Origin: Prorocentrum cordatum
Lineage: Eukaryota; Sar; Dinophyceae; Prorocentrales; Prorocentraceae
Length of the DNA: 64,000 nucleotides
Direction: 5' to 3'
NCBI GenBank assembly: GCA_963575745.1
Contig: CAUYUJ010015685.1
Location: forward strand, 194,397 to 258,396
Shown here: positions 20,402 through 49,383 of the stretch, in pieces
Layout of the letters: every line of letters begins with the position of its first letter
How positions within the stretch are numbered: position 1 is the stretch's first letter
Position numbers and translations under genes: made by a program
The notes under the pieces: generated by a model
Told to the model about the DNA's origin: nothing
What the model saw: only the letters and a program-made list of their open reading frames with translations
Databases searched by the model: none

Positions 20402-20654
20402 TATACATATAACGGCGCACCGGGTCCGGGGGCCCGGGGCCGGGACCTCGACCACAAATGTGCGCCCCGGGGGGCCCGGAGGCTCGTCGGGGCTTGCCGG
20501 AGGCCTCCCCGGTCAGACAAGACGGCCCCAGGAGCGCCCAAGACGGCCCAAGAAACTTCCAAGAGGCCTCCAAGAGGGCTCCGAGATGCTGAAGATGGCC
20601 TCCAGACGTCCAAGGACGCCCCCAAGAGGCCCCAAGAAGCCTCCAACATGCGTC

Positions 20655-22170
20655 CCAAGAGGGCCCCTAGACGCAAAAATTGGCCCATTCCCTTCGTAAA
20701 ACGTACATTTTTCAACAAAGTTGCTTTTTGGGCTTTCCGACGTTACAGGACGGCCCACGAGGCGCCCAAGACCGCCCCAAGACGGCCCAAGAAGCTTCCA
20801 AGAGGGCCCCAGGACAGCCCAAGAGGGCCCCAAGACGGCCCAAGAGGCGCCCAAGATGGCCCAAGAGGGCCCCAAGACGGGCCCAAGAGGGGGCCCAGAG
20901 GGGGACCACGAACCGCAAGCTCGAGCCTTCCGCCCCAAGAGGCCGCCAGGAGGCCCCCAGGAGGCCCCTCAAGAGGCCCCAGGAGACCCCAGACGTCCAA
21001 GGACGCCCCCAAGACGCCCCAAGAAGCCTCCAACATGCGTCCCAAGAGGGCCCCTAGACGCAAAAATTGGCCCATTCCCTTCGTAAAACGTACATTTTCA
21101 ACAAAGTTGTCTTTTGGGCTTTCCGACGTTACAGGACGGCCCAAGAGGCGCCCAAGACCGCCCCAAGACGGCCCAAGAAGCTTCCAAGAGGGCCCCAGGA
21201 CAGCCCAAGAGGGCCCCAAGACGGCCCAAGAGGCGCCCAAGATGGCCCAAGAGGGCCCCAAGACGGGCCCAAGAGGGGGCCCAGAGGGGGACCACGAACC
21301 GCAAGCTCGAGCCTTCCGCCCCAAGAGGCCGCCAGGAGGCCCCCAGGAGGCCCCTCAAGAGGCCCCAGGAGACCCCAGACGTCCAAGGACGCCCCCAAGA
21401 GGCCCCAAGAAGCCTCCAACATGCGTCCCAAGAGGGCCCCTAGACGCAAAAGTTGGCCCATTCCCTTCGTAAAACGTACATGTTCAACAAAGTTGTCTTT
21501 TGGGCTTTCCGACGTTACAGGACGGCCCAAGAGGCGCCCAAGACCGCCCCAAGACGGCCCAAGAAGCTTCCAAGAGGGCCCCAGGACAGCCCAATAGGGC
21601 CCCAAGACGGCCCAAGAGGCGCCCAAGATGGCCCAAGAGGGCCCCAAGACGGGCCCAAGAGGGGGCCCAGAGGGGGACCACGAACCGCAAGCTCGAGCCT
21701 TCCGCCCCAAGAGGCCGCCAGGAGGCCCCCAGGAGGCCCCTCAAGAGGCCCCAGGAGACCCCAGACGTCCAAGGACGCCCCCAAGACGCCCCAAGAAGCC
21801 TCCAACATGCGTCCCAAGAGGGCCCCCAGACGCAAAAGTTGGCCCATTCCCTTCGTAAAACGTACATGTTCAACAAAGTTGTCTTTTGGGCTTTCCGACG
21901 TTACAGGACGGCCCAAGAGGCGCCCAAGACCGCCCCAAGACGGCCCAAGAAGCTTCCAAGAGGGCCCCAGGACAGCCCAAGAGGGCCCCAAGACGGCCCA
22001 AGAGGCGCCCAAGATGGCCCAAGAGGGCCCCAAGACGGGCCCAAGAGGGGGCCCAGAGGGGGACCACGAACCGCAAGCTCGAGCCTTCCGCCCCAAGAGG
22101 CCGCCAGGAGGCCCCCAGGAGGCCCCTCAAGAGGCCCCAGGAGACCCCAGACGTCCAAGGACGCCCCCAC
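20655..22170 (+). repeat. 386-bp tandem repeat, four copies
   Basis: ACGCAAAAATTGGCCCATTC or its G variant starts at 20671, 21058, 21444 and 21830, giving spacings of 387, 386 and 386 bp. Each unit has a unique-looking part (CCCATTCCCTTCGTAAAACG through TTTCCGACGTTACAGG) followed by about 300 bp of CCAAGAGGCCCC decamers. Copies differ by only a few bases, so amplification or homogenisation is recent. The period is not divisible by three and the Pro/Gly/Arg-rich frames shift from copy to copy. Confidence 0.95.
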
Positions 22171-22225
22171 GACGCTTCGCGTCACCAATTTCTTCTCACA
22201 ACGATTCCTGGGTCTGTGACTCGAC

Positions 22226-22263
22226 AGAACCTAAGCGCGCGCGAAGCGCGCGCGTGGTTCTAG
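22226..22263 (+). other. GC hairpin terminus of element I
   Basis: Complementary arms CGCGCGC and GCGCGCG flank a GAA loop. Outside them AGAACC and GGTTCT also pair, so the whole 38-bp end can fold as one long hairpin ending TCTAG. Confidence 0.8.
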
Positions 22264-22895
22264 TATGTATGTATGTATGTATGTATGTATGTATGTATGT
22301 ATGTATGTATGTGTGTGTGTGTATGTATGTATGTATGTATGTATGTACGTAGTTATGAATGTATGTATTCATGTATGTATGTATATGTATATGTATATGG
22401 ATATGGATATGTGTATGTATATGTATATGTATATGTAAAGATACATGTATATGTATATGTATATGTATGTGTATATGTGTATGTAACTGTATCTGTATGT
22501 ATGTATGTATGTATGTATGTATGTATGTATGTATGTATGTATGTATGTATGTATACATATGTATGTGTATATGTATGTATGTCTGTCTGTCTGTATGTGT
22601 GTCGGTATGTATTCATGTCTGTATGTATGTATGCATGTATGTATGTATTTATGTATGTATGTGTACATGTATATATTCATGTATACACGCATGCATGTAT
22701 GCATGCATGGATGTATGCATGGTTGTATGTATGTATGTATGTATGTATGTATGTATGTATGTATGTATGCATGCATGCATGCATGCATGCATGCATGCAT
22801 GTATGTATGTATGTATGTATGTATGTATGCATTTATGTATGTATGTGTGTACGTATGCATGTACGTATGTACGTACATATGTTTGTATGTCTATA
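22264..22895. repeat. (TATG)n microsatellite between elements I and II
   Basis: About 630 bp of TATG with TGTA, TGCA and TCTG variants, bounded on both sides by inward-facing CTAG hairpin ends. Confidence 0.95.
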
Positions 22896-24397
22896 CTAGA
22901 ACCATCGCGCGCTTCGCGCGCGCTCAAGTTCTAAGTAGCTTCTTGGGACCTCCTCGGAGCATCATGGACTGCTTCTTGAAGTCGTCATGGGACCTTCTTG
23001 GCATGTCTTCGGGGGCCTCTTGGAAATAGTTTTGAAGCCTTTGGGGTGCCGTCTTGGGGCCTCTTGGAGCCTCTTTTTTGGGCGTCTTGGGGGCCTCTTG
23101 GGGCCTCTTGGGGGCCTCTTGGGGCCTCTTGGGGACTTCCTGGGGGCATCTTGGGGCCTCTTGGGTGCATCTTGGGGCGGAGAGCTTGATTTTTCAGTTC
23201 GCGTTCCCTCTCTTGGGCCCCTCTTGGGGCCTTCTTGGGAACCTCTTGCGCCGTCTTGGGCGGCTCTGGGGCCGTCTCGGGGCTCTCTTGGGCTGTCTTG
23301 GGGCCCTCTTGGGGGCCTCTTGGGCCGTATTGGAGCGGTTTGGGGAGCCTCATGGGCGGTGCTTTAGCGTCAGGAAACACGCACACAACACTGAAATCAA
23401 CAATGACAATCAACGACTTTGCCCTCTCGGTGCGCTCTTGGGCAGCATCTTAAAGGCCTCTTGGAGCGTCTTGGGGGTCTGGGGCAGTTTAAAACGCATC
23501 GTGCGTCGCCAGAGACCCCTGGACGGCGTCTTGGGGGTGTCTCGAGACCGCCTGGGGCCGCCGGGATGGCTGTCTGAGGGCTCCCCGGGTCCAGGCCCTG
23601 GTCCCCACATTTGTGGTCGAGGTTCTGGCCCTCGGCCCCCGAGCATGGTGTGCCGGTGGGGGCATCTTCGACCGTCTTGGGTGCCTCTTGGGCCCTCTTG
23701 GACGCAGTGGAAGCCCAAAAGGCGAACGCGCCAAAAAACATCAGTTTCCCAATCGGAAATCTACGTTTTTTTTATTTGGGGTTCTATTGGGGTGCCTCTT
23801 GGGGCGTCTTCGGGACCTCTTTTGGTGTTTTTTCTGGTCTCATGGGGGCCTCTTGGGGCTTCTTGAGCGCTTCTTGGAGCCTCTTCGGGTCTCCTGAGGG
23901 TCTCTTGGGCCAAAAGGCGCAAATTTCGTGTTCCTCGCCCCCGTCTTGGGCGCCGCCTTGGGGCCTTCTTGGGCGGTTTGGGCGCCTCGTGGGCCGTCTT
24001 GGCCCCCTCGTGGGCTGTCTTGGGGCCCTATGGGGGCATCCTCGACCAGCTTGGGTGCCTTTTGGGCCGTCTTGGACGCAGTGGAAGCCCAACAGGCGAA
24101 CACGCCAAAAACATCAGTTTTCTGAGAAGAAATTTACGATTTTTGCTTATTGGGGCCCTCTCGGGGTGCCTCTTGGGGCGTCTTCGGGGCCTTCGGGGGC
24201 CTTCTTGGCGTCATGGGAGTCGTCTTGAAAGGCATCCGGAGCCATCGGAGCGCGTTTTCGAGCGTTCCGAAACCTTCTTCGGGCGATCTTGGACGGCCTT
24301 CGGCGCTCCGGCAGGGCTCCCGTCGCGCCGGGCCCCCGCATTTGCGGTCGGGTCCTGGCCCCCGGCCCCCGGACCAGGTCCCCCGTTGTATGTATAT
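22896..24397 (-). mobile_element. Hairpin-ended element II (proposed, minus orientation)
   Basis: Read on the minus strand, the element starts at about 24397 with CATATACATACAACGGGGG and a head matching element I (GGTCCGGGGGCC, GACCGCAAATGCGGG). It continues through decamer DNA and ends at 22896 with a GCGCGCGCGAAGCGCGCG hairpin and GGTTCTAG followed by T. A second head-like block with GACCACAAATGTGGG lies at 23595-23655, and sequence around GACGCAGTGGAAGCCCAA repeats at 23701 and 24075, so it may be two partial copies in tandem. It is embedded in (TATG)n on both sides. Confidence 0.55.
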
Positions 24398-24657
24398 GCA
24401 TATGTATGTGTAAGTGTATGTGTATGTTTGTATGTATGCGTGTGTGTATAATTGGATGTCGTATGCATGTATGTATGTTCGCACGTCCGCATGTATGTAT
24501 GTATGTACGGATGGATCGGTGTATACATGTGATGTCTGTATGTGTGTATGGATGTACGGATGTAAGCATGTATGTATGCAAGTGTGTTGGTTGTATGTTT
24601 GCATGCATGTATGTGTGTGTATGTATGTATGTATGCATGCATGCATGCATGTCTGTA

Positions 24658-24696
<39 letters not shown>

Positions 24697-25313
24697 ATGT
24701 ATGTATGTATGTATGTATGTATGTATGTATGTATCTATGTGTATGTATATGAATGCATGCATGCATGCATGTATGTATGCTTGGATGTATGTATGCATGT
24801 ATGTGTGCAGGCATAGATATATGTTTGTAGTGTAGTGCAATTTGGCGGAATGCAATGTCATGCCATGCAATGTCATGCCATGCCACGCAAGCGTAAGGTA
24901 ATGTAATGCACGTATGTGCGTGTATGCGTATGTGCGTATGTATGTATGTATGGATGTATGCAGGTATGCATGTATGTATGTATGGATGTGTGTGCATGTA
25001 TGTTTGAATGTACGTATGAATGTATGTGTGTATGTATGTATGTATGTATGTATGATTGTATTTATGTATGTATGTGTGTGTCTGTATGTATGCATGCAGA
25101 TACGTAGTACGTATGTATGCATGTATGCATGCATGCATGTATGTATGTATCTACGAATGTATATGTGTGTCTATGTATGTATATATGTATATTCATCTAT
25201 GTATGTATGTAGGTATATATGCATGCATGCATGCATGCATGCAGGTATGTATGTATGCATGCATGCATGCGTGCATGCGTGCGTGCATGCATGCATGCAT
25301 GCATGCATGTATA

Positions 25314-25348
<35 letters not shown>

Positions 25349-25475
25349 ATGTATGTATGTATGTATGTATGTATGTATGTGTGTATATGTTTGTATGTAT
25401 GTATGCATGTATGTATGTATGTATGCATGCATGCATGCATGCATGCATGCATGTATGTGTATGTGTATGTGTATG

Positions 25476-25507
<32 letters not shown>

Positions 25508-25785
25508 TGGATGTATAGTTGTATGTATGTAGGGATTGCTGCATGTATGTATGTATGTATGTATGTATGTATGTATGTATGTATGTATGTATGTATGTAT
25601 GTACGTATATATGTAGGTCTGTATATATGTATGTATATACCTATATATATATATATATGTATGCATGCATGCATGCATGCATGCATGCATGTATGTATGT
25701 ATGCATGTATGCATGCATGCATGCATGCATGTATGTATGTATGTATGTATGTATGTATGGATATTTGTGTATATACACATTGTGG
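24398..25785. repeat. (TATG)n/(TGCA)n/(TGTC)n microsatellite, 1.4 kb
   Basis: Long mixed tetranucleotide tract with TGTC blocks at 24660-24695 and 25315-25350 and alternating TGCA blocks. Long Cys/Tyr/Val or His/Thr/Tyr frames on either strand are artefacts of TATG periodicity. Confidence 0.95.
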
Positions 25786-25976
25786 AGGCCTCCCGGCCAG
25801 TGCCGACCCTGAGGGCGGAACCTCCCCTTGGAGTGACCTGGGACCCCCCCCACCACAAGCAGGACCTCCCCTGCGACCCCCGCTGGCGACTCCCAGAGGG
25901 GGTCCCCCCTTCCCCCTGTCCACGGGGGGGGAACCCCTCCCCCTGGACCGGGACCTGCTAGGACCCTGGTGTGGGG

Positions 25977-26008
<32 letters not shown>

Positions 26009-26040
26009 AGCGAGAGAGTGGGCGAGGGAGATGAAGAGGG
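25786..26040. repeat. G/C-run module and (GA)n
   Basis: GGACCTCCCC and GGGGGTCCCC-type runs at 25790-25975 are followed by a (GA)n tract at about 25978-26004. Confidence 0.75.
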
Positions 26041-26480
26041 AGCTCTTGAGCCGTCCTTGAGCCATCTTGAGGGCCTATTGGGGGTCTCTTGGGGTAATCT
26101 TGGAGGCTTCTCGGGTCGTCTTGGATGCTGTGAAACCTGATGAGGCGCTTATGCTAAACATATATGTTCTTTTCATGAGATGGGGCATTGTTTGTGTCTC
26201 GGGGCCCTCTTCGGGAGTGCTTTCAGAGGCGTGTTGCACCGTCTGGAGGACATCTCTTGGAGCGATGTTTCGGCGAGTCGGGGCACTCTTGGACCGGCTT
26301 GGGGGCCGTTTGGGGCCCTCTTGGGGTTTAGTCCCGATTTGGGGCCCTCCTGGGCCAGAAAGTGTCGTGCGACAAGACGCGGCAAGCCCTGGGAGAGCCA
26401 GCCGCGGCACGCCCCAGGAGATTTTTGGGTCTGGACTTGGGCCTTTTGTTGAATCTCCAATCCTGAGTACTGAGGGACTG
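26041..26480 (+). repeat. CTTGGGG-type decamer array
   Basis: CCATCTTGAGGGCC, GGGTCTCTTGGGG and similar 10-12 bp units, interrupted by a low-repeat segment around 26130-26190. Confidence 0.65.
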
Positions 26481-26641
26481 AGGAAAGTTCAAGGGGGCCT
26501 AAGGACACTCGAATTCCTGCCTCACGGCACGGTCACGGATGAGGGGAGGCGGAGGAGGGACAGAAAGACCGATCAGATACAGGGGTGCAGCACATGATAT
26601 CACACCGAATGCCATGTCTTCATTTGCCTTGTCCGAAAAAG

Positions 26642-26719
26642 GGCGAAAACGTCGAGAAAGCCAAGGAGGTAGTCAACGATATCGTGATGTATTATCACCA
26701 CGAGATCACCCATCCCGGC
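26642..26719 (+). CDS. Multi-KH RNA-binding protein, exon D
   Basis: These twenty-six codons give the third helix of the KH domain started by exons B and C (GENVEKAKEVVNDIVMYY) and the start of the inter-domain linker (HHEITHPG). The acceptor is CCGAAAAAG before GGC, again AG before G, though the upstream tract is purine-rich. After GGC at 26719 the sequence is GATGTG, giving a phase-0 GA donor. A GC donor two bases earlier is a formal alternative but breaks the frame with exon E. Exons B, C and D together encode one intact type I KH fold. The intron between C and D is about 13.8 kb and contains both hairpin elements. Confidence 0.85.
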
Positions 26720-27457
26720 GATGTGCTTCTCCCTGCTTCCTGGTCATATTGTTTCCACTTCTCCCATTCCGCCTGCTACTCGTCCGTGTCCAGAGACGCC
26801 TCGTTCACTCCTCTTGCTGCTATGACATACTTCTGGCTCCTCGGCTCCACTCGTCGTCTTTCCCATGAATCGCCCCGCAGTGCCATGGCAAGGAATTCGC
26901 GAGGCAACCGTGTACGCGCGCGCTTTGCGCGCTCACTCGCAGCAGAGTCCGAGCATATCACTTGCCCTTGGCACAGCAGATACAGTCCTCGTCCTCCTCG
27001 ATTTCGGAGTTGACTTGATTTTGTTTGTTGTTTCAGCATCCCTGGTTTTCTTCTAGCGTCGGCATCCGAAGGCCGTTTGTGTCCCCTGGGCCACCACTCA
27101 TTGTTCCAGGCGAAATTCCAGGACGAGAAGGTGTCCCTTGGGCAACGGGTCAAGAACTCTGGAGCCCGCGGAGTTATGGGGGTCCTCCTCCCGCCCTCCC
27201 TCCCACCCCCCATCTCCGTTTCCTCCTGCCTGTTTCTCCTCCTCGGCCTTTCTCTTCCTCCTCCCCCTCTCTTCTGAATACCCCGAGCCCATGTCTATTT
27301 CTTGGCACACGTGGTAATGCTTAGGGCTTAGGCCATAGCACATGGTTCTTATTACATTAGGAAGTCCACGTGGATTTCGATGCACCCCGCGGCCCTGCTA
27401 ACCTCAATGCTTATGCGTCATACATTTGAAAAAGCGAGTTCTACCGCTGCTGGCGGA

Positions 27458-27625
27458 AAACCGGGGGGGGTCACTACCGGTTCGACCCCCCCCCCCCTCC
27501 GGAAAACCGGGGGGGTCTTTACCGGTTCGCACCCCTCCCCCCCCCCCAGTCCATCATGAAAAGGGGGGGGGTCACTACCGGTTCGAACCTCCCCCCCCTC
27601 GAAAACCGGGAGGGGTGTGCGGACA
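27458..27625. repeat. Triplicate G/C-run module with CCGGTTCG, left bracket
   Basis: GGTCACTACCGGTTCGA followed by a C run and GGAAAACCGGGGGGG repeats three times. It is the inverted equivalent of 28245-28330. Confidence 0.8.
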
Positions 27626-28230
27626 GTGGTGGGGACGGTGGTGGTGGGGACATTGGTGAGGGGACAGCGGGACAGTGGCGGGGACAGTGGGACAGTGGTG
27701 GGAACGGTAGTGGTGGGGACAGTGGTGAGGACAATGGTGGGACCAGTGGGGACAGTGGGACAGTGGTGGGGACGGTGGTGGTGGGGACAGTGGTGTGGGG
27801 ACAGTGGGAATGTGGTGGAAACAGTGGGACAGTGGAGGGTACAGTGGTGGTGGGGACAGTGGTGAAGGCGGTGGCGAGGACGGCGGTGGGACAATGGGAC
27901 AGAGGTACAGTGGGGACAGTGGTGGGGACAGTGGGGACAGTGGTGGGAACAGTGGGACAGCTCAGTGGGACAGCGGAGGAGTCAGTGGGACAGTGGGGAC
28001 AGTGGGGATAGTCGGGCAGTGGTTGGGGCCGTGGAGAAAGTGGGGAGAGTGGAACCGTGGTGGGAACAGTGGTGGGGACAGTGGGGACAGTGCGACAGTG
28101 GTGGGGGCACTGGTGGGGACAGTAGGGGCGGTGGTGGAACCAGTGGGGACAGTGGTGGTGAAGACAGTGGTGCTGGGAACAACAGTGGGGGATGTGGTGC
28201 GGACGGTGGTAGGGACCGGGAGTCGTTTGC
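27615..28230 (+). repeat. GGGGACAGTGGTG minisatellite
   Basis: Units of 9-14 bp (GGGGACAGTGG, GGGACAGTGGTG) run for about 600 bp. Gly/Thr/Val-rich plus frames and Pro/His-rich minus frames are artefacts. Confidence 0.92.
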
Positions 28231-28244
28231 TGGCGGTGAGGGGG

Positions 28245-28450
28245 GGGGGGGGAGGGGTTCGAACCGGTAGTGACCCCCCTCCGGTTTTCGAGGGTAGTGA
28301 CCCCTCTTGGTTTTTCGAGGGGGAGGGGGGGGGGGGTTCGGGGAGGGGGGCGTTTTGCCAGGGGAGAGGAGGGGGGGGGTGTCAGCAGGGGGGGGGGTCG
28401 GAGGGGGGGGGGGATCCCTGGGTTCTGGAGGAAGAGGGGGGGAATCTTCC
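28245..28450. repeat. G/C-run module, right bracket
   Basis: GGTTCGAACCGGTAGTGACC and GGTTTTCGAGGG in inverse orientation to 27458-27625, followed by long G runs. Confidence 0.8.
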
Positions 28451-28454
28451 ACAG

Positions 28455-29200
28455 TAAAACGGCGGTGGATCACGCTCTCTCATATATTTGTACGCTAGTG
28501 TTCCTCTCACGATTCTCCGTTGCCGCGCGTGCTCTTATTTTTGTATACATGCCTACAATGGGGAGTAATAAGCAATCCGGATTCACTCGATTTCTGTGTT
28601 TCTGCTTACCATTCCAATGCTTCCTGTCTTCGCGCCAAGAGTCCTGATGCCGACCGAACGACGGGTCATCGGCGGAAAACGGCCAAGTGGAGGCTTGAAG
28701 TTTTCAATGGGATTGTTGAGGCCAACCTCGAAGCCACCGTGGAACCACTCTGACTGGCAGCCATGCCTGCGCCGCCAGCGAACGTGATGCCACTCTCCGC
28801 CTCCTCCAGCTCAGCCTCCAAGTTCGAATTCACGAGCAGTTGGATGCTTGTGTTTCCGGCGACCGTATTAATCGTCCGTGACATAAACTACGATGGCATA
28901 AACCGTCACATCATAAGGTTGTCGTGTACATTGGCTAACGGTCTTGTTATGGTTCCAGTCCTCATCCGGGTCGCAGGCTTCCATGCCCAAGCTGGAAGCC
29001 ACCGCATACGTTCAAAGCTCTCGTTTCTTGTGTGTGCCCAGTCGTCCGACGGATTCGCTTGTTCAATTCACGGGCCCCATGGTTCGATCGGCATGTTTCG
29101 TCTCAGAACAGTGTTTGATGGCCACGGGGGCTGAATTTACGGAAACAATTATTGTGGGACTAATCAAATACCTCAGAAGTCCACGGTCTTGAAGTGCGTC
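28455..29200. other. Low-repeat stretch with ambiguous open frames
   Basis: A plus frame at 28763-29134 (123 codons) and an overlapping minus frame at 28884-28666 (contains NLEAELEEAESGITFAGGAG) both have protein-like composition. I recognise no family. They cannot both be real; either may be a decayed insertion in the D-E intron. Confidence 0.25.
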
Positions 29201-29206
29201 TCTGTG

Positions 29207-29211
<5 letters not shown>

Positions 29212-29238
<27 letters not shown>

Positions 29239-29305
29239 TATATATCCCCTTTTTTATGTTTTCTCTTTCTCTCTCTCTTTTCCCCCTCTCTCTCTTTCTT
29301 TGGGA
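29212..29305. repeat. (TA)n and (CT)n tract
   Basis: TATATATA with TG interruptions, flanked by CTCTCT tracts. Confidence 0.9.
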
Positions 29306-29404
29306 ATTGTTGTCGCTTCGCGAATCCCCACCAGCCCATCCAGTAACGATGCCCAGAGGAATTGCCTCGATCAGAGAAGTGGGCAGCACACAGAGGAAGC
29401 CATT

Positions 29405-29780
29405 ATGAGACATCTTGGGATATCTTGAGCCATCTTGGAGGTCATTTTGGGCTCTCCCAGACGCTCTTGGAGTCATCTTAATCCGTGCCCCCCCCCAAGA
29501 GGCCTCCATGTGGCTAAAACCTGTGTAGAATCAATGATTAGGCATTCTCGCCGAGGCCTCTTGGAGCATCTTGGGTGCATCTGGGGGGGCTCTTGGGGCC
29601 TCTTGGGGGTCTCTTGGGGGCCTCCGGGGGGCCTCTTGGGGGCCTCTTGGGGCCATTTTGGGGCCATCTTGGGACCTCTTGGGGCTTCCTGGGCGCTTCT
29701 TGGGGCCATCTTGGAGGAGATCGATCAAACAAGAGGGGGGGGTGAATTAGCGCCCCCCCTCGGAAGCCCCGAAGAGGCCA
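29405..29780 (+). repeat. CTTGGGGCCT-type decamer array
   Basis: Dense CTCTTGGGGGCC units at 29560-29715, followed by GGGGGGGTGAATTAGCG with C runs. Confidence 0.8.
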
Positions 29781-29952
29781 AAATCGTCCCAAAACCTAAG
29801 GAAAATCAATGATTTTTGCTTTCTCGCCTTTTCGCTTCCGGACGCTCTAACTACCCGCGGCCCCCCCCGTCCAGGTCCAGGGGAGGGGGTAGGGGGAGGG
29901 GTAAACCCCTCCCCAAGGGGGAAGAGGGAGGGGTGGAAGAGGATCTGTTCTA

Positions 29953-29982
29953 GACCACCTACGCCCAGAGGGCTGGTGGGAT
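29953..29982 (+). repeat. Second copy of the 30-bp block
   Basis: Matches 14003-14032 with one substitution. It again follows a module of long G and C runs (29860-29940). Confidence 0.8.
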
Positions 29983-30189
29983 TCTGCTACGCGTTGCCTC
30001 GCGCCTGCGCTGGGCTGGCCTGGGACCACGTTGCGGTCCTCACTGCGTTATGTGTGCCGTCCATCGCCGCTCGCGTCTTGGCCACTGGTTTGTAGAACCC
30101 CACCGATAGACACGACACGTTCGCGGAATCGGCTCGTTTGCAAGTTCTTTCTTTTGTAATGTGGCGAGGGTGGTTTCCTCCAGGACCTA

Positions 30190-31740: not shown

Positions 31741-31744
31741 CCGG

Positions 31745-33545: not shown

Positions 33546-33573
33546 TGTGGGAGGCGGTGCTCCACGCGCCTAG

Positions 33574-34908: not shown

Positions 34909-34924
34909 GTCTCCTTATGATCCT

Positions 34925-36700: not shown

Positions 36701-36814
36701 CGCACGGGCCCAGTTCTTTAGGAGAGAGATGAGAATCCCTTAGTGCAAGCATTGTGTGGGGAATATGGCAGATCCATTTCGGATTTCGGTGTCATTTGTC
36801 TTCCAACGACTCCG

Positions 36815-37235: not shown

Positions 37236-37239
37236 CCTC

Positions 37240-38070: not shown

Positions 38071-38074
38071 TGGG

Positions 38075-38085
38075 TATTGGTGATG

Positions 38086-38119
<34 letters not shown>

Positions 38120-38815: not shown

Positions 38816-39015
38816 TTAGCGGCAGCGACAGCGGCAGCGGCAGCGGCGGCGGCGGCGGCGGCGGCAGCAGCAGTCAGCAGCGCAGGAGGAGGAGGATGGG
38901 AGAGTGGGGGAGGAGGAGGAGCGCCTCGCTGAAGCCAGCACGCGCGGTTGAGGAGTGCGGCGGGGACCTTTATTTCTGTCCTGCCTTGCCCCGCCGCGAC
39001 GGCCCGTGTCCCCAG

Positions 39016-39069
39016 CGCAACGTCGAGCGCGCCGTGGCCTACATACACAACGTGATCGCCAAAGCCGCC
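39016..39069 (+). CDS. Multi-KH RNA-binding protein, exon H
   Basis: The exon encodes RNVERAVAYIHNVIAKAA, the third helix that completes the KH domain of exons F and G. The acceptor is CGTGTCCCCAG before C, the only acceptor in this gene not followed by G. The 3' boundary is not fixed: GC donors after AAA (39063) or GCC (39066), or a GA donor after GCC (39069), all keep phase 0. With exon H the three joined exons E-F-G-H give a full KH domain with no gap. I could not follow the gene with confidence beyond this point, so its C-terminus and 3' untranslated region are unknown. Confidence 0.8.
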
Positions 39070-39199
39070 GAGCCCAGGGGCCGTGGTGCGGTCGGAGCAG
39101 CCCCCCACTCTGCACTGCCAGAAACAAGTTGTATCCATTGCCTAGGAGTTCTGCCCAAGAATCTCGAGGACCTCTCGCGGGGTGGGAGTCATGGAGATC

Positions 39200-40040
39200 T
39201 GCCCGCCCTTGATTGAGTTCGGGAGAGTATCGGTATCCACCGTTCCCCAGATATCGAGGGCAGCGCTGCATAAGCTGTGGATGTGGATGTTTCCTGGCGG
39301 TCTGCTACGCTGCTGCAGCCACTGCGAGGTTATGTTGCAACTCCTGGGGTTCTACAGAGAGCCACGGCCCTGGCATCTCATTTGTGTTACTCCAGTCTCA
39401 TCTGGCATCTCGTTTTGTCTGGTTCATTCTGGCTTAGTCTGGCTTTATGTGTGGTTACTCTGGGCTTACTTTGGCTTGCTAGCTATGCCTCCTGATCTGG
39501 CCTGTGAAGTTTCGATCGCGCCTATGAAGAAGACCTCTCGTGAGTTGCCTCATGAGATGTGAGGGCGGCCCTGCACGGCCTTCCGAAATCCGACCGGCTC
39601 GGACATCGCATAGCGGTGTTTGCGCGCGGCATCTCTCGATGCATAGTGGCTCCCCCCTTCCAAGGGGTGCCATGTGGGCTTCAAGAGCCTCTGTGGTATC
39701 CCTGGGGCCTTCCTGGGAGCCGCGGGGCCTTTCATGCTGAGAGCTCCTGCAGTGCCCCCGGGCCGGCCCAGGGGGCTCCGGGGAAGGGCGGCGTAGATCC
39801 GCCATGAGCGCCCGACAGCCCCCCCAGAGTTGCGGCAAAGTCGGCGAGGCTTGTGGAGTCTCAAGGAACTTCAGGGTATCAGAGGTCGTACAGTGGATGT
39901 GAGTTGCGGAGTTTCGGTGCGGGCTCCGCCGCGGCAGGCGTCCTCGATGCTTGAACCGCGAAGCTCGATCCTCGGACCTCGTTCTTGACATTTCTCCCTC
40001 CTTCCTCCTTCCTCCCTTTCGTAGCCTTTTTGACTCAAGG
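39200..40040. other. Low-repeat stretch, nothing recognised
   Basis: No supported exon, RNA gene or repeat array. Several open frames of 60-170 codons on both strands lack recognisable motifs. Confidence 0.35.
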
Positions 40041-40042
40041 TT

Positions 40043-40615
40043 TTGCTGGTGGCAGCGCCAGAAGTGGATGCCGCTAGTCTGCGCTCAGAGAACTACAATC
40101 CGTCTGTTCGCCCAGGCTGGAACTGTGCACCAGTGTGCGCGGTCGTTTTTATGAGCTTTTGCTGGTGCAACGACAGTGTCAGCGACGACGGCGACATGCC
40201 GAAGTATCAGCAGTACACGGCCTGCACCCGCTGCGGAGGTTTGGTCTTCAACTGGAAGCTCAAGGTCCTCGGCGGCGGGTGCAACACTTGCAACGACTAC
40301 ATCGTTGGTTGGTGCGAAGAGAGCGGGACAAACAGAAGCGGAAGCGGTTGCCAGCGTGGCGTTGGCGTGGGGAATGACTCGAGGATGTTTGCCTTGGAAC
40401 CGCACTTCTAGGAGACCTTCGAGGAGCAGCACATGCTTGGGTCGCAGGACGCGGACGTAAAGCCCTTCTACATCACCGAGGAGATGTGGACTGATGTGCT
40501 CGCGCTCCCGCGAGAGCCAGCCTCGCTCTCGGCATCATTCCAATCCTGGAGCGATCACCCCATCTTCCTGGACGGAAGGCAAGCTGCAGCAGATCAGGCG
40601 GCGACTATGAGATAG
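40043..40615 (+). pseudogene. Zinc-ribbon-like ORF broken by one stop
   Basis: One plus frame runs from 40043 to 40615 with a single TAG at 40409-40411. From an internal ATG at 40197 it reads MPKYQQYTACTRCGGLVFNW, with a CTRC knuckle and a second Cys pair (GGGCNTCNDYI) about 20 residues on, as in a small zinc ribbon. After the stop the same frame continues with ETFEEQHMLGSQDADVKPFY and ends at TAG. Short CxxC-W...CxxC proteins of this kind are common N-terminal modules in dinoflagellate retroelement-associated proteins (recollection, not checked). It is either a pseudogene or two exons with the stop in an intron. Confidence 0.5.
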
Positions 40616-40734
40616 GCGGAATGGGTATCGTGATTGGAGGATTCGGTATTCATCATTGACAGCATCCCAGAGCACGACGATGGGCCGCGAGTGGGTCGCG
40701 GGTGGGTTGGGTGGGTCGCGCCGCGGGTGAATCG

Positions 40735-41265
40735 TTCGGTCCCCTCAGTGACCGCTCGGGGGGCCCTCCCGGGGCTGTCTCGGGGCCCCCTTGGAGCCGT
40801 CTGGGGGCCCTCGGAAAGGGCTTGATTGGGGCCCCGAGACGGCTCCCAGAGCGCCCCGAGACAGCTCCACGAGGGCCCATGAAGGCCCCGAGATCGGTCA
40901 AGCCAGAGAGGCTTCGCGTGACTGCTCTTAGGGTCCGCTCGGGGCGGTCTCGGTGCCCCCTCGGGGCCGCCCGAGAGCCCTGGGGGCGCGGGCGGGGCCC
41001 GAGGGGGGCCCCGAAACAGCTCAGAGCCCCAGGGCGGTTTCAAGAGGATCCCCAGCGCGGTCACGCGAAGCCTCTCTTGCGGGACCGGTTTTGAGGCCCT
41101 CCTGGCAGCATTTTCAGGCCCTCTCGGGGGCCTCCAACCCTTGCTGGGGCCCTCGGACGGGCCCGCGCGGGCCCCGAGACACCCCTAAGTTGCCCCCGAG
41201 AGGGCCACAGAGGTCCCCAAGAGTGCCCCAAGATCTGTCGAATGCATCCCGCTTTTTCCCAACCG
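40735..41265. repeat. GGCCCCGAG/CTCGGGGCC array with inverted halves
   Basis: CTCGGGGCCC-type units at 40735-40825 are followed by their complement CCCCGAGACGG-type at 40830-40895, and both orientations alternate again to 41265. Confidence 0.7.
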
Positions 41266-41544
41266 ATTGACCAAGCTAAGGAAGTCTCCAAACGCAGAGG
41301 CCCGTGCCTTCTTTGAACAATCATAGGTTCGGAGGGTGATTCCCAAAGAGGGCAAGGGGCCGCTCCGGGCCCCTGGGGCGGGGGGGGGATTTCGGAGGAG
41401 TCCAGGGGCGCTCGGAGGAGCGTGCCAGGCAATGGCCCCCGTGGCGGCCGCGGCGCGTTCGGGTCACAACGCAATCCCCCGCGCAGTCTGCGATGTCTCT
41501 TAGTATGACGAGGACATGATTTGACGAATTTTCGTTTCAAGATT

Positions 41545-41735
41545 TGCACAGGGCTGCCGTCTTCAAAGAAGTTCCCCTCCCCGAGGGCACTCTCCAAAGT
41601 CCCGCCAAACTTGTGCGAGGATGTCTCGAAAAAGTAGTTCGCGTCAGATCTCCTCGAATTTCGTTTAATGTCGTCAAATCCCGTGCCAACCTCTTCAAAG
41701 TACGATTCGTCAAAGCGCGCCGTCTTCAAAATCGC
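41545..41735 (-). other. Minus-strand coding-like segment
   Basis: The minus frame reads TARFDESYFEEVGTGFDDIK, then NYFFETSSHKFGGTLESALG and EGNFFEDGSPVQILKRK. The acidic/aromatic pattern and balanced composition look protein-like. CTTTGAAGACGGC occurs at both ends of the segment in the same orientation, so part of it may be a diverged tandem repeat. No family recognised. Confidence 0.3.
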
Positions 41736-41759
41736 TTCGCCAAACTACATGGGAAAACG

Positions 41760-43210
41760 GGCAACAATGACGCGGGGGGGGTCGCGATGCTACCCGAACG
41801 CGGCGCAGTCGCCGAGGGCAGGCTTCCTGGGGTCTTCAACAATCTGGAGGCATGGTCGGGTAGTCGGCCAGTAATCGCGCTCTGGCGTCGTTCGGGCCCC
41901 TCTGCAGGTCTCCCGGGGGTGGGCGAGCGAGCTCCCGGAAGGCCCCGCAGACCCCGCCGCCCAGGTTGCTGCCGGGTGGCGGGCCGCGGAGGCCATCATT
42001 CAGACCGCGCGCGAGCGTCGTCGCGACGCCGTCGAGGGTTGAGCTGCGATGGGGGCCAAAGTATGATGATCGGGCCAAGGTCGGGGGGTGCCGGGTGCCC
42101 ACTCGCAGTGTCCTCATTCGCCGCGGCAGTGCTCTGCGGCAGTCCTCGGATTCTTGTCGTATCGCGCACCCCCGCCGCCCCTTTCAGAGCAGGTGCCCAG
42201 GCGAGTCGCCGTGATCAGGAGGGGAGTGTAGCAGCGTGCAGTGAAACAAAAAGGGGGGCAGCCGCTGCCCGTGGGAAAAAATGATGTGGCCGGGGGGAAT
42301 GAAGGAATAGCTCTGGCTTTGTCGTCGCCAGGGGCCCCAGGAAAGTCCCCGGAGGACCGCGCAAAGGGCTTCAGATGGTTCTGGGGGCTCTCGTGGGGCC
42401 TTCTTGGGGGCCCCATGAAGGCCGAGCAGCGCAATTTGCGAAGACTCAGTCTTTATCCGATCCCGGTTCTTGGCTCGACTTGCTCCCCGAGGGCCCCCGA
42501 TCCTGCGGGCGCCTCCTCCTGGGTGCGCCTCTAGCAGCTCCCGAAGCCAGGCCGCTGCTGGGCGCCGAGCAAACGGCGCCTCGCTCCGCAGTTCTGTCGG
42601 TTTTTTATTTTGGCATTCGAGGAGTGCCCGGGATCTTTCGCGTTTTTCATTGCCCCTCGCAAGGTTCCGAGAAACCGGGGCCATTGCCGGGCCAGTCCTT
42701 CGGCCGCCGGTTCCAATGAGGACCGTGGTCCAGGGCCAGAGCCGCCTTGGACTGCCGCCCATGTTAGGATATCGCGGTCGTCAGGGCTCCGCCCCGTGCG
42801 GGCGAGAGAGAGGGCCCCGATGCGCTTCTAAGGGAGCAGCAGAGGTTCTTCGCCGCGGGAAACCACGTCGCTGGCACGTCGACGGGGAGCGGGGCGGATT
42901 TGGCGCGGGGGCACGGGCTGGCGGGGAGGGGGCCGGGCGCTGATCGGATTGATGCGCGCGCGCATGGGGCGCGGGCGCGCGCGCAGAGCCCTGGCCGCGT
43001 CGGCCGCGACGGCGCCGGAAGAGCGGGCCTCGCGGGCGCCCGCGCGCAGGGCGCTGTCCAAGCAGACGCAGGCAGTCGCCCCATTTGCTCGAACAGTTTG
43101 GCGGCAAGTGGAGATCCAGTCAGTGCCGGTGCATTTTTCCCAGTGCGAAGTTCTCTTGGTTTGCGCCTTCAGAGTGCGCGGGCCCCCGGGGATGCGAGAC
43201 CCGCGGGGCC
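41760..43210. other. GC-rich stretch, no gene supported
   Basis: High-GC sequence with many overlapping open frames on both strands and no motif or splice-bounded exon that I can defend. Confidence 0.3.
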
Positions 43211-43212
43211 CT

Positions 43213-43213
<1 letters not shown>

Positions 43214-43265
<52 letters not shown>
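43214..43265 (-). repeat. 52-base poly-T
   Basis: Uninterrupted T run between GGGCCCTG and CGGCGCCTGG. It could be the tail of a minus-strand retroposed copy, but no matching gene body or target-site duplication is obvious. Confidence 0.85.
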
Positions 43266-45690
43266 CGGCGCCTGGTCTGGGGCATGGTGCCCGCCCCGCC
43301 CACTCACTGATGCGCGCGGAGAGATGGTCTCTGCAGTGGCGCGCCCCCTGCGCGGGGCGCGCGCTGCAGCGGGCGCTCGCGCTTTGCGCGGGCGCCTCGC
43401 AGGCGCGGCCTCGAAAAGGGACCGAGGACTTCGGCGCGATTGACCGCGGCGCGTTTCTTCGTCGCCCCCCCCCCCCCCCCAGCGCTATCAAGATGGCAGC
43501 GGCCCCCAGGGGCCGCCGTCGTCTGGGGGGCAGGGCCGGGGGGGCGCGCGCGCGCGCGAGCTGGGGCGCGACGGGGGGGGGGGCCCGTCGAGCCTTCTGG
43601 CGCTCCGCCCGAGGTCTCCCGAGCATGCCGCGACAGGCGTGAGCGGGGTCAGCTGCGCGGGGTCGCCGCGGAGCACGGCGCAGGCCGCGGCCCCGCGGCT
43701 GCCCTCCGCGGCCGGGGGGGGGGGTCTCAGCAGCTCGGGCTCTTGGTGGCTCGGCGGGGGGGGGGGTCTTACTCTTTTGATCGTCTGCGCCAGTGCGCGC
43801 CCGCCCCTCGCTCTCCCTCCCGCGATTAGTGCGCCTGCCGCGTCGGGGCCCAGGTGGCGAGGTGGCCCTCGCCCTCTTGCCTTGGGCGGCGCGTTTGTCG
43901 CAGCGGGTCCCGGATGGCAAGGTGGCGTCGAGTCGGCGCCGGCGCCGTGCGCGACAGCTGCGCTGCCCGTCCCAGGGGTCGAGAGGAGTTCGAATTTGGC
44001 CCGCCGCAGAGCAGCGCCGCGGCAGCTTTTGCGCGCGTAGCAGCGGAGGAAAGAGATGGAGTGGCGAGCTCCCTTGATTATATTTGTCCAAAGAGTTGTT
44101 TGTCCCATCGTTTGCGTTGCTTCTTGGGCTCGCATTCGCTTCGCAGGCGTCCTCGGGCCCAGTTTCGGCGCGCCTGGCGCTGCCGGCGGAAGAGGCCCGC
44201 GTCGCGGCGCGCGGGGTGGCGCGCGGCGGCTTCCTCGCGGAGCACTCGGCGGGTGGGCTGGCAGCGGGCTGTAGTGGGCGGCGCGAGGCCTCTCGCGTGC
44301 TCGGGGCGGCCGAGGCCATTCTGCGCGCGGCTGGCCACGCTGGCCAGGCTCGCCCCTCCCGCGCCCCTTGCGGTGGCCGCGGCTGCCCGCCCGCGGCGAC
44401 GTTGGCCCCGCGGCCACGGCGGCCAGACGGGCGAGGCGCGGGGCGGCCGGCGCGGCGCCGACGTTAGCGAAGGCAAAGTCGTGGAGAGCGCGGCGGCAGA
44501 AGGCGCGCCTGCCGGGGCGGCCGCGCCCCCCGTGTCGACGCTGGGGGGAGCGGGGCCGGGCTGGAAGCGCCCCGCGGCTGCCGCGGCGGCGCTGGCCTAG
44601 CCGGGCCCCAGCGCTGCCGCCTCGCGCGCGGCGGCCCTACTGGGTCCGGCGGTCTTCGCGCGAGCGGGTCGCCTAGTCCTCCGACGCGGAGCTGGGGGAA
44701 TTTGCCGGCGGCCGCGGGGGGCGCAGGCCCCCGGTGGGGGGGGCCGCCAGCCCCCGCCCTCTGCGCCTTGACGAGCGCGGCAGCTGGCCTGAGCCAGCTG
44801 CGCTCCAGCCGTGGGCAGTCCTGTGGGGGTGGGCCTTTTTCCGCGCTGCCGCGCGCCCCCGGGGTGCGGGTTGTTGCCCCCTTGCCCGCTCGCCGTCGAT
44901 CTCCGTTTCCTGGTGTCCTTTTCTTTTTCCTGCCCTCTCCCTTTCCCGCCTTCCTTGCCGCCCCCATCCTTCTCGGGGGTGGTTGTGGAAAGTCTTCGAA
45001 TTGAATCGTTGCTTGCATCCTGCTGGGGTGCTGATCTGGTTCAAACACGGAGGCTGTCAATAACCGTGCGGGATGGTATTTTGCACTTCCAGTGGGCGCG
45101 CTTCGCCAGTGGCCCTGTTGTCCGGCAGAGCGCCGATGGTATTTCACGGGAAGCAGGGGCGCGGGTTCGCGACAATGTTTTCCTGGTCGACGTCGGCCTT
45201 CCAGGCATTGATCCCGCGGATGGCCGGGGGCTGAAATCGCTACGACGATGAAACCCCAACTGCCGTGGCGGGCCGCGCGCCGTCGCCGTTACAATGGTCT
45301 TGCCACTCCACGCGGACGGTACTATGCGGCAAAACGCTGACACGGTGCCTGGTGTATCTTTCGAGCCCTGCTGCTACATAACTGGGACTAGTGTGCAGCG
45401 AGTTTCTGCCACTGGTGGTCGTTGTAATTTAAGCCCGTTGGCGGCTGAGCCGGGGAGCGACCGACTTGCCCGCGCGAGCCGCGGCAGCACGGGCAAGAAC
45501 CACGCCTGCGGCGTTGCAACCTCGTGGTGCCCGTTCGTGGAGGCAGCGATGGACTACGATGGTCGCGGCGACCGGACAATGTCGCCCCAGCCATTACGCT
45601 TGTCGACGAGGGTACAGGGCTTATGTGCGAGGCGGTCGGCGGTGTGCTGCTGGAGGTGGACGTGTGGCTTGAAGGCCGCGCGTGAATTGC
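43266..45690. other. Extremely GC-rich stretch
   Basis: GCGCGC-rich sequence with Ala/Arg/Gly/Pro-rich frames in all directions. No gene, repeat family or RNA is recognised. Confidence 0.35.
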
Positions 45691-45760
45691 CCCCCCCCCC
45701 CCCCCCCCCCCCCCCTCCCCCTCCCCCCCCTCCACCCCCCCTTCCTCCTTCTCCCCCGGG
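45690..45760. repeat. Poly-C tract
   Basis: A run of about two dozen C followed by C/T-rich DNA. Length may be unreliable. Confidence 0.85.
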
Positions 45761-46664
45761 GCTGGTCAACCTGCCGCCAGCTGGCTCACCTCGGCGTTTT
45801 CCATGCCCGATTTGTTGTGGCATTGTGTCGTTCGTTCACGGGTGGGGGGAATATAATAATGGCGAACATGCGAATGCCCTTGGTGCTCGGCGTATGCGTC
45901 CACTTCCAAACTATACCTGGCCAAACTACCTGCGCCCATCTCGCAGTTTATCCCTTCCTCTCCTTCTGCGTCGTCCCCTGTTTATCCTTTCCTTGTGGAT
46001 CGCGCGCAGTCCCAACCGTTAGGCCCCCCTGCTTTTTTTCTCGCCATGGCGAGACTGGATCGTGCCCAGCGGCGCGAGAGAGAGACTGAGCTGCCGCCGT
46101 CGAGGCGCGTGTCGGTGACTTCTGCGTGGCGAACATGCAGCTGCGCGCGCAGCAACATGCTCTTGTCGACAGTAACGGGGCCTGACTGTGCGCATCGGGG
46201 TCCTCCGGCGCGTCGGCCCCGCCTGGGCCCCCGCCCGACCCTGCCGACGCCTCCTTGTCGGCTTTCCGCAGTCTCCCTGGTGGGCCTTCCCCGTGCGCCT
46301 CCGCCGATCACGGCAGGGTGTCGCTGCGCACCTCCAGCTAGTTCCACTTGCGGCGCCCCCGCTAACGAGTGGTCTGCGTGGCCATGCGCCGTTTTTTCGG
46401 GCACCGTCGCGAGGAAGAGCCCCGCGGCTGTGGGCATTGTTTTCTTGCGTTGTTTTTGTTGCGCCCTGGGCGGGGGGGAGGCTTTCTCTTGCGCGGGCGA
46501 CGTTTTTTGCAGTGCGCACCTGCGCCACGCCGGGAGGCGGCTTATTTCGGGCGCGCCCCGGTGCGTGGCGCGTCGGTGTGCCCCCGTTTTATGCCCAACG
46601 GGAAGAGCGGTCAGCTTTTGATTCCGTTGGGTAGACTAGATTGGCACGGCCCCCCGCTCTTCAG

Positions 46665-46708
46665 CGTCGGTTCAAAAAAGCTCAACGCGCCGTGTGCGAG
46701 TGCCTCAG
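46665..46708 (+). CDS. Candidate exon: possible KH helix 3
   Basis: Between CTCTTCAG and a GTGCTG donor lies a 44-nt open stretch encoding RRFKKAQRAVCECL plus two bases. The spacing of Phe, Ala, Val and Leu resembles helix 3 of the proven domains (PENVAQAKTAVEDRV, RNVERAVAYIHNVI). It could belong to a further KH domain of the same gene, but the matching beta-strand and GXXG exons were not found. Chance is quite possible. Confidence 0.25.
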
Positions 46709-46929
46709 GTGCTGGACTGACCGCCGCTGGATCTTGCCTCCTCCTTCCCTCCTCAGTCTCTCCTCTTTTCCTTTCCTCTGGCTTCCCCCCAGTCCTCCCT
46801 CCCTCCTCCAGGCTCCCGCCTCGTTCCCCTTCGTACACTTCATTCCGATATCCTGGGGATCTTGTTCAGGCCATGAACAAAAGACAGGGGATCCTGACGC
46901 ACGACGCACGACGACCACGACGACAAAGA

Positions 46930-47372
46930 CGAGCAGAGTAGAGTAGACGTGTGATGAAGAAAAAGTTGGAGTAGAGGAGAGGGTTGGGCTGAAGAGCCGA
47001 GTCGAGTAGAGTAGGGTGGGGTAGTTCCGGTAGGGTAGAGTGGAGTAGGGTAGAGTAGAGTAGAGTAGATTGGAGAAGAGTATCGAGGTGTATATCTGAT
47101 TATAGTAGAGAAGCGAAGAGTGGAGGGGTAGATCAGGACAGACTTAGAGGGGCAGATCAGGACAGAACCTGAGTAGAGTAGGGTAGAGTCGGAGTATGGT
47201 TGAGCAGAGTAGGATCAATGTCGAGTATACTATAATATGCTACGTCACGGTGGGGTATAATCTGGTAGAGTGTATTCCGGCAGAGTAGGGTAGAGTACAG
47301 TAAAGTAGAGTAGCGTAGAGTAAAGTAGGAGTAGAGTAAAGTAGGGTAGAGTAAGAGCGAGATGGAGCAGAG
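46930..47372. repeat. (TAGAG)n microsatellite, left flank of element III
   Basis: Imperfect GTAGAGTAGAG units. The tract resumes at 49390 after element III. Confidence 0.92.
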
Positions 47373-47459
47373 TATATACATATAGCAGGGGATCAGGGCC
47401 AGGGACCCCTGGGCCAGAGCCTCGATTAGCGACTGGTGTGTCGCTCCTCCCCTGAGCCT

Positions 47460-48650
47460 CCATGAGGCCTCAAGACGGCCCAAGAGGGCTCCCAGAGAGC
47501 TCCCAGGCAGCTCAGGAGAGCCCGAAGACGGTCCAAGAGGGCCCCGAGTCGCCGAATGATCGCTCCGAGACGCCCAAGGTGGCCCCAAGACGGCGCAAGA
47601 GGCCTCCAAGACGCCCCAAGTTGCTGACAAGAGCAGTCCCAAGAGGGGAAGCTAAAGTTATTGGCTTTCAGTTGGTGTTTGAAGGATGTTGGTGTTATCG
47701 CCTCTTCGGCTCCGCGACGCTTGAAGACAGCCCAAGTGGTTTCTAAGATCGGTCCAAGACGTCCCAAGAGGCCTCCAAGAGAGCCCCAAAACGGCCTACG
47801 AGAGCTCCATACATCAAAAGAAGCCTCCACGACGGCCCGAGAGAGACCCCAATTGACATTCCGTCTTTTCGGCTTCGAGAGGCCCCCAGGAAGCCCCAGC
47901 GAGATCCCCAGAGGCTCCTCAGAGGCCCGAAGCGGCCCCGGACACGCCTCCAAGAACAGTCTCAATGGGACCCCTGGAGGCACACTGTATTGATTTCTGT
48001 TAGGTTTTAAAGGGTTTGTGCGTTATCGCCTTCTCTGTACCCCGACGCCCCAAGGCAGCCCACAGAGCCCCCAAGATCGCCCCACGTCGGCCCAAGAGGC
48101 ACCCGAGAGAGCCACAATCGGGCCCAAGAGGTTTCCAAGGCGGCCCAATATGCCTCCAAGACGGCTGCAGAGGCCCCCAACATGGTTCCCAGAGGGGGCC
48201 CAGGCGGGGGACCCGAACGGACATTTCGACCCCTCGGCCCCAAGAGGCCTTTTAGACGCCCCAAGAAGCCCCCAAGAGGCACCACGATGCTCCCAAGACG
48301 CCCCAAGAGGCTTCCACTCCCGAGGTGGCCCCACGAGGCAAACATAAGTGATTTCTGTCAGGTTTTGAAGAAGGATTTTGGCGTGTTCGCTGTTTGGCTC
48401 ACCGAGGCCCAAGAGGGCTCAAGAGGCCTCCAAGATCGGTCCAAGACGGCTCAAGAGACTTCCAAGAAAGCACCAAAACGGCCCAAGGGCCTCCCAAGGA
48501 GGCCCAGGGGGCTTCCAAGACTGCTCAAGAGGGCCCCAAGACGGTTCCAATAGGGGGGCCCGACGGGGTGGCCGAACGGAAAAATTCGATCCCTCGGTCC
48601 TGAGGGAGTCCCTAGAACGCCCCAAGAGACTTCCCCAGAGGCCCCAAAGA
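47460..48650. repeat. CCAAGAGGCCCC decamer arrays within element III
   Basis: There are three successive blocks with related spacer sequences, TTATCGCCTCTTCGGCTCCG, TTATCGCCTTCTCTGTACCC and GTGTTCGCTGTTTGGCTCAC, each preceded by TTTGAAGGA, TTTTAAAGGG or TTTTGAAGAAGGA. This suggests a unit of about 340-350 bp present roughly three times. Confidence 0.65.
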
Positions 48651-48959
48651 TAACCATGCTTCCCAACTTGGACCACTTCAGTTCGAATATCCGCCCACAC
48701 CGATCCCGAACAGTTCGAGGGTCCCACATAGCGGCCCCTTTCACCCGAGGCTACCCCCAAAGTTCTGCGGGGTTTCCTTCAGCACCCTCGTCTTTTCTGT
48801 TTGCACAGGAGCGAGCGTCCAGTGCGTTCTGACGTTCGGGATGTGGGGGGAAGAGTGCAGCCTGTGGGCTGATACACAAGAGGAGAGAGGGGGGGAGGGG
48901 AGCCGACCCGACTCCTCTACTATCTCTGCTCAAATCCGTCGCCTCGAGTGATACATATC

Positions 48960-49260
48960 CTGATGGCGATGATGAAGATGAGGCGGCCAGCCAGAGAGAC
49001 AGAGCGAGAGAGAGAGAGAAACATAACTATACAATCGTATAGATGAGAGAAAGAGAGGAGGGAGGATAAGGCTGCGTAGGATGAGACGCAAGAGGGAGAT
49101 GTGTGGAAAAGAAAAGTCAGCGAGAGAACGTGGATGACAGATGGGAGAGAGGAGGGGGACGAGGAGCATACAATGAGGAATTGGGACATCTGGGAGGACA
49201 TGAGAAGTGAGAGGATAAAGAGACGAAGTAACAGAGGGAATGCAATGCGCATGGCGTGAC
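48960..49260. other. Purine-rich part of element III
   Basis: GAGAGAGA and GATGAGA-rich sequence. The open minus frames are Ser/Leu-rich artefacts. Confidence 0.6.
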
Positions 49261-49383
49261 TGAGGGGAGGCCCTCGTTTTTGCGAAATGTTGGGAGTTTA
49301 GGCTTCAAGATTTGACCAGGACCTATCCGATGCTGCGTCGCTGCCTCGGTCTGCGCTAGAACCTAAGCGCGCGTGGTTCTAGT

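Follow-up and report, generated by a model that had tools for sequence, protein, structure and literature searches.

What kind of element underlies three repeat loci, here E1, E2 and E3, in a stretch of the genome of the dinoflagellate Prorocentrum cordatum, and what could have moved them? The stretch, referred to as the window, comprises 64,000 nucleotides of contig CAUYUJ010015685.1 (positions 194,397 to 258,396, forward strand). An initial annotation, made from the sequence alone, described the loci as sharing a head, a body of decamers and a hairpin tail, and proposed a non-autonomous family inserted into microsatellites. E1, E2 and E3 are, very probably, non-autonomous Helitrons derived from a Rep-bearing lineage of approximately 11.7–12.0 kb in the same genome, which have lost the Rep/helicase gene while retaining both ends, the 5′ one with TATACATATA and a G/C-rich block and the 3′ one with the hairpin tail, together with part of the 5′ decamer satellite. 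The proposal of a non-autonomous mobile family is supported by Rep-bearing copies with the same kind of ends.

Both ends are abundant in the genome, which was searched as an assembly of 4.13 Gb in 21,875 contigs (the genome is given, in part of PMC10666404, as 4.15 Gb in 22,724 scaffolds with 59.7% GC). The tail pattern (AGAACCTAAG N5–25 TGGTTCTAG, 38 bp) has 3,114 exact matches (1,471 + 1,643) and the 20-bp head TATACATATAACGGCGCACC has 1,539 (729 + 810), with no match to either reversed control; the genome search with head and tail that had been suggested thus returns thousands of copies. Pairing of the ends was read from the first 100 places of each pattern among the matches listed, on contigs found in both sets. 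An exact tail lies 762–5,105 bp downstream on the same strand for 23 of the 37 heads, an opposite-strand tail lies within 12 kb of none, one head has a tail upstream, and three begin exactly at a tail's end; for the final head, a tail is possible beyond the places listed. The distance between head and tail is variable, yet both boundaries are fixed, so that the refuting case set out in the initial annotation, variable distances together with loose boundaries, does not arise. Genome-wide, TGGTTCTAG runs directly into TATACATATA at 134 exact junctions (control, 0); in some of them, TATACATATA may belong to the target instead of a new head. No exact match to the tail or to a double decamer was found among viral contigs, in a search that possibly omits the genome studied here; no plasmid matched an E1 unit exactly, and there was no Rfam match and no tRNA.

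The boundaries were defined from 27 paired flanks, 17 from the two pattern searches and the other 10 taken either in the window or at larger loci; the 17 were picked by exact patterns, which biases them to young copies, and one of the 27 is a tandem dimer counted as a single insertion. No target duplication is present in any pair. The 5′ T is preceded by A in 12, G in nine, T in six and C in none, and the base after CTAG is T in all 27. Across all tail types, and excluding tails that run directly into a new E1-type head, 73 of 75 distinct right flanks begin with T, so that the rule of an invariable T, as first stated, holds with two exceptions (L022 and L092). Spread of decamer satellite blocks by recombination within microsatellites, involving no mobile element, would agree with the variable array length and with decamer arrays that lack these ends. 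The fixed boundaries at both ends refute it, and unrelated flanks, sites outside microsatellites and the thousands of copies leave it practically no probability. A cut-and-paste element of the MULE or MITE type, or a retroelement, that targets microsatellites is highly improbable, since head and tail share no terminal inverted repeats and none of the 27 pairs shows a duplicated target, even though microsatellite-targeting MULEs (SaTar) are described for plants in part of PMC5907723.

The connection to a rolling-circle enzyme comes from Rep. A genome search with the Helitron_like_N profile (PF14214) gave at least 151 matches, with 150 of 1,615 candidates scored, and none in 14 control genomes. 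One such Rep lies upstream of the tail on contig C390. A query with the 1,158 bp that precede this tail, the 3′ block, gave 45 rows (best 40 of 437 candidates scored), of which 40 were retained after exclusion of five short pieces and compared with the 56 of the 151 Rep rows that reach at least 166 bits. Of these 56 Rep matches, 13 are followed on their own strand by the block within 10 kb, at 5,250–5,404 bp in 12 cases and at 6,731 bp in one; in none is the block upstream or on the opposite strand. At all 13 places read, nine of them with a listed Rep, the block is followed by the tail and then by T and TA-rich DNA.

The 5′ end of the C390 element lies 4.7 kb upstream of Rep and consists of a TA repeat and TATCCCGGGGGACGAGGTCCCC, followed by approximately 1.4 kb of decamer arrays with spacers of the same kind as in the bodies of E1–E3. 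With 213 bp of this end as a query (best 40 of 1,016 candidates scored, 40 rows), eight of the best 40 autonomous-type heads have Rep at approximately 4.7 kb and the 3′ block from approximately 10.6 kb. These eight elements measure roughly 11.7–12.0 kb, with head, Rep and 3′ block collinear; the tail was read directly in all eight and the 5′ end in three (C390, C13580 and C19636). They are the full-length partners sought by the initial annotation, with a Rep match between ends of the same kind, and by its Rep the superfamily is Helitron. The Rep-bearing copy on C13580 lies within (TATG)n on both sides, as E1 does. In C15214 the 3′ block is interrupted, and C16131 has a Rep with no block among the matches listed.

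The heads of C390, of L014 (a second type) and of E1, E2 and E3 line up over their first 60 bp or so. Against the C390 5′ array, the bodies of E1–E3 give E values of 7e-135, 2e-92 and 4e-87, compared with 8e-25 and 8e-22 for two decamer arrays outside elements, all of these values being inflated by repeats. The satellite of E1–E3 is most simply explained as having come from the autonomous element's 5′ region, given that central tandem repeats also stand in DINE-1 and in oyster HINEs. Four derivatives of about 6.5 kb (C18266, C14524, C3336 and C7217) join the autonomous head to the terminal 241 bp of the 3′ block; none has a listed Rep, the tail was read in C18266 and C7217, and with their near-equal lengths they constitute a second non-autonomous subfamily. 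At the C390 locus (oriented positions 315–347), a different tail copy ends some 40 bp before the autonomous element, so that neighbouring insertions share one TA repeat.

A related enzyme is encoded on contig C478, where a 2,623-aa open frame carries Helitron_like_N and PIF1 domains (domain scan). It matches Helraiser (7lcc) over residues 722–2181 (E = 9e-237), and its Rep/helicase aligns with the C390 counterpart at 55% over 588 aa. The alignment with 7lcc retains an H-x-H stretch and a two-tyrosine stretch, which we take to be the HUH and Y2 motifs. As a second Rep–tail pair C478 was rejected: its tail is an E1-type 3′ end located approximately 13 kb from Rep, with another open reading frame between them, and the E1 head is not present in the C478 stretch examined. 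The intervening frame has an EF-hand-like sequence, as judged by eye.

A Crypton-like tyrosine-recombinase element, in which a circle junction recombines with a TATG or TATA core in the target, would also give precise junctions without duplication, exact joined ends and a target resembling the left end. However, elements that carry a Helitron Rep terminate in the same tail, at a constant spacing, and the T after the tail persists where neither core is present, as in C162 and L001. We consider such an element very unlikely.

Several observations weigh against assigning E1–E3 to this Helitron lineage. Beyond TATAYATAT, the autonomous and E1 heads differ in sequence. A 5′ TC is missing, the end being TATACATATA in E1-type and (TA)nTATCCC in autonomous copies, and with A before it in only 12 of the 27 paired flanks there is no strict insertion between A and T. 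The hairpin of a canonical Helitron lies some 10 nt inside the 3′ end, whereas here it abuts the very end of the element. The tail of E3 folds no better than its shuffles (z = −1.07, 28 of 200 as good). The open frames at Rep in the eight linked copies span 577–1,105 aa, one of them with a stop, and the helicase part of C390 is known only through a DNA alignment with C478 that covers the Rep and helicase parts. Finally, tblastn found no Rep in 20 regions of approximately 10 kb around tails, a result that is expected if most copies are non-autonomous. On the other side, the tail of E1 folds better than nearly all its shuffles (z = −3.64, 1 of 200 as good), and the tail palindrome is retained across copies among the matches listed. 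For the 5′ block, folding exceeds that of shuffles in E3 (z = −2.55) but not in E1 (z = −0.78) or E2 (z = −0.56). The Helitron-like 3′ end without a TC start that had been noticed in the window (hairpin, CTAG, then T) recurs in the copies with Rep.

No subterminal or terminal inverted repeats were found in 12 elements, in a test of exact matches: the longest inverted match is 5–7 bp, against an average of 5.5–6.2 bp for shuffled heads. This bears on the Helentron/HINE branch (Helitron2), which uses the same chemistry and whose DINE-1 kind targets TT and has subterminal inverted repeats. A 5′ end that starts with T and not TC would suit that branch, as would a tandem array flanked by conserved ends, with a 3′ palindrome, an arrangement described in parts of the DINE-1 and Cg_HINE reports. 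The missing inverted repeats, the end at CTAG before T, and a target of any base followed by T instead of TT (the left base is T in six of 27) argue otherwise, and we regard membership of this branch as unlikely.

For a Helitron lineage with these ends, the following mechanism can be proposed. By analogy with Helraiser, a Rep of the HUH kind would nick at the 5′ T, and the displaced strand would run to the 3′ hairpin, which would set the end between CTAG and T. The ends of the element would then become joined, and the strand or circle would enter 5′ of a T where the DNA alternates T and A and is similar to the 5′ end of the element itself, with no target duplicated. The joined ends seen genome-wide are compatible with a circle or with several rounds. 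The strand chemistry and the circle, like the matching of a given Rep to a given copy and any present-day movement, are what we infer from these arrangements.

Target choice can be read from the flanks. When the flanks are joined without the element, the phase of the host repeat is regained in (TATG)n for E1 and C189, in (TA)n for C382 and in (TCA)n for C162. A microsatellite of at least 16 bp is present in 38 of 75 right flanks, compared with 6.3% of 40-bp pieces drawn at random from the window; the measure is strict and misses E1, E2 and E3 as both-sided. By this measure, a microsatellite flanks both sides of three of the 27 paired sites and just the right side of six, and is absent from both sides of 18. 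The two-sided host repeat reported for the three loci is visible for E1–E3 but is seen in only three of 27 pairs genome-wide, and the proposed microsatellite target holds as an enrichment that is real but partial: microsatellites are enriched as targets without being required.

The commonest bases after the tail are TATATATATATA (73 right flanks with T), and in the same flanks A+T amounts to 83% in the first ten bases, compared with 61% at 30–40. The fourth base is A or G in approximately 69% of the first 61 right flanks. Insertion sites thus consist of T followed by TA-alternating DNA, among which microsatellites, (TATG)n and (TA)n for example, occur often without being obligatory; a preference for TA-rich spots leads many copies to sit inside microsatellites. 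Tentatively, and with the balance of our judgement on the doubtful side, Rep may read about ten bases and not one dinucleotide, its targets being roughly TATRTATATA, like the element's own 5′ terminus. The 37 non-microsatellite right flanks score 5.0 against TATACATATA, compared with 3.99 for shuffles (sd 0.21, 0 of 3,000 as good). Against such an extended site, 811 of 5,000 shuffles do as well as 18 paired non-microsatellite flanks, a set typed by hand in which one site differs from the measured non-microsatellite list. If the ten-base reading is true, a preference for TA-alternating microsatellites and for the element's own joined ends would produce exact head-to-tail tandems.

The three copies in the window lie where they were initially placed, to within 2 bp (Table 1).

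Table 1. Positions of E1, E2 and E3 and their parts in the window
Feature	Position	Strand	Remarks
E1, non-autonomous Helitron copy	20402..22263	+	1,862 bp, sits in (TATG)n
E1 head, TATACATATAACGGCGCACC... then G/C-rich block	20402..20476	+	first 20 bp have 1,539 exact genome copies
E1 body, 386-bp unit of decamers and AT-richer spacer	20602..22175	+	4.1 copies, 98% alike
E1 hairpin tail, ends CTAG, then T	22226..22263	+	fold beaten or equalled by 1/200 shuffles
E2, non-autonomous copy	22896..24396	−	1,501 bp, (TATG)n-type DNA; 5′ end 24396, 3′ end 22896
E2 hairpin tail, AGAACTTGAG variant	22896..22932	−	
E2 internal second head, without preceding TATACATATA	23577..23655	−	window similarity search
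E3, non-autonomous copy	47375..49382	+	2,008 bp, (TAGAG)n-type DNA
E3 tail, short loop (AGAACCTAAGCGCGCGTGGTTCTAG)	49358..49382	+	within palindrome CTAGAACC...GGTTCTAG starting 49356

Exact TGGTTCTAG occurs at three places in the window, the tails of E1, E2 and E3; with at most one mismatch there are 20 matches, compared with 9.5 expected. The shared head stands for E1 and E2, which match in the window search (E = 6e-17). The E3 head, used as a query in that search, did not recover the others, and it lines up with the E1, E2 and autonomous heads in a multiple alignment for which no significance was computed. With two heads and one tail, E2 is a composite or nested copy. The body unit of the elements is approximately 350–390 bp, with decamers (CCAAGAGGCC) and an AT-richer spacer, and the body of E1 is related to the array at the 5′ end of autonomous copies; the final 700 bp or so of E3 are free of the decamer array. 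The decamer body reported for the family is real but not exclusive to it, as arrays without this head and tail are present at approximately 13340–13870 and 29400–29870, so the body alone defines nothing.

These two arrays belong to blocks (12900–14040 and 29330–29990) with CCACCAGCC / GGGCTGGTGGG inverted ends and common flanking sequence, possibly a second, inverted-repeat family carrying the same satellite. Elsewhere, the window contains 89–90-bp tandem repeats with related units (2412–2734 and 17389–18632), a long degenerate 18-bp array (CTTTGGTTTTCGGCGCCC; 15140–17042) and a perfect run of 93 T (10301–10393). Its G+C content is 45–69% in 2-kb steps, mostly 51–63%.

These results link a rolling-circle enzyme to an abundant repeat, associated with microsatellites, in a very large dinoflagellate genome. 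Both ends of the repeat are defined, and its thousands of insertions allow the end recognition and target choice of Helitrons to be read from sequence. Ends that lack 5′ TC would evade annotation based on TC...CTRR. The literature collection searched held no paper with 'Prorocentrum' and 'Helitron' together, the P. cordatum genome paper (PMC10666404) makes no mention of 'Helitron' in its main text, and no dinoflagellate Helitron appeared among the titles listed by wider searches (all four of one, ten of 2,324 in the other). These elements can be placed among systems described in other organisms.

Helitron-like elements of Lepidoptera reportedly disrupt (GAAA)n. Judging by the title of Coates 2010, Helitron-like elements in microsatellites were known before, and the present ones are like them in this type of insertion, in a different repeat. 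SaTar MULEs (PMC5907723, in part) are likewise non-autonomous and microsatellite-associated, but of the MULE enzyme class. DINE-1 and HINE elements, as excerpts of PMC4067079, PMC2374699 and PMC7492417 (Cg_HINE) present them, are non-autonomous, with conserved ends around tandem repeats, a 3′ palindrome and an association with microsatellite DNA; there the microsatellite is an internal module, whereas here it is the host target, and here subterminal inverted repeats are not found and the target is T, not TT. Helitron2 and FoHeli share non-canonical termini and reported joined-end forms, and differ in their asymmetric terminal inverted repeats, to judge from portions of PMC3627910 and PMC5148889.

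Helraiser, a Helitron1 element, is described in part of PMC4778049 as having CTAG joined to T, a hairpin as end signal, joined-end circles and an AT-rich preference strongest on the 3′ side. The P. cordatum elements are like it in their 3′ CTAG (of the CTRR form) followed by T, 3′ subterminal hairpin, absence of duplication, AT-rich 3′ preference and joined ends, and in the related Rep/helicase of the same genome, that on C478. Unlike Helitron1, they begin with TATACATATA or (TA)nTATCC and not with TC, are preceded by A, G or T without the insertion between A and T, and have the hairpin at the end itself. By its ends, the nearest known system is proto-Helentron-Pi of Phytophthora infestans (PMC4067079, in part): its 3′ CTAG, a 5′ T in place of TC and the absence of duplication are shared, whereas a 5′ TT and insertion between A and T are features of proto-Helentron-Pi.

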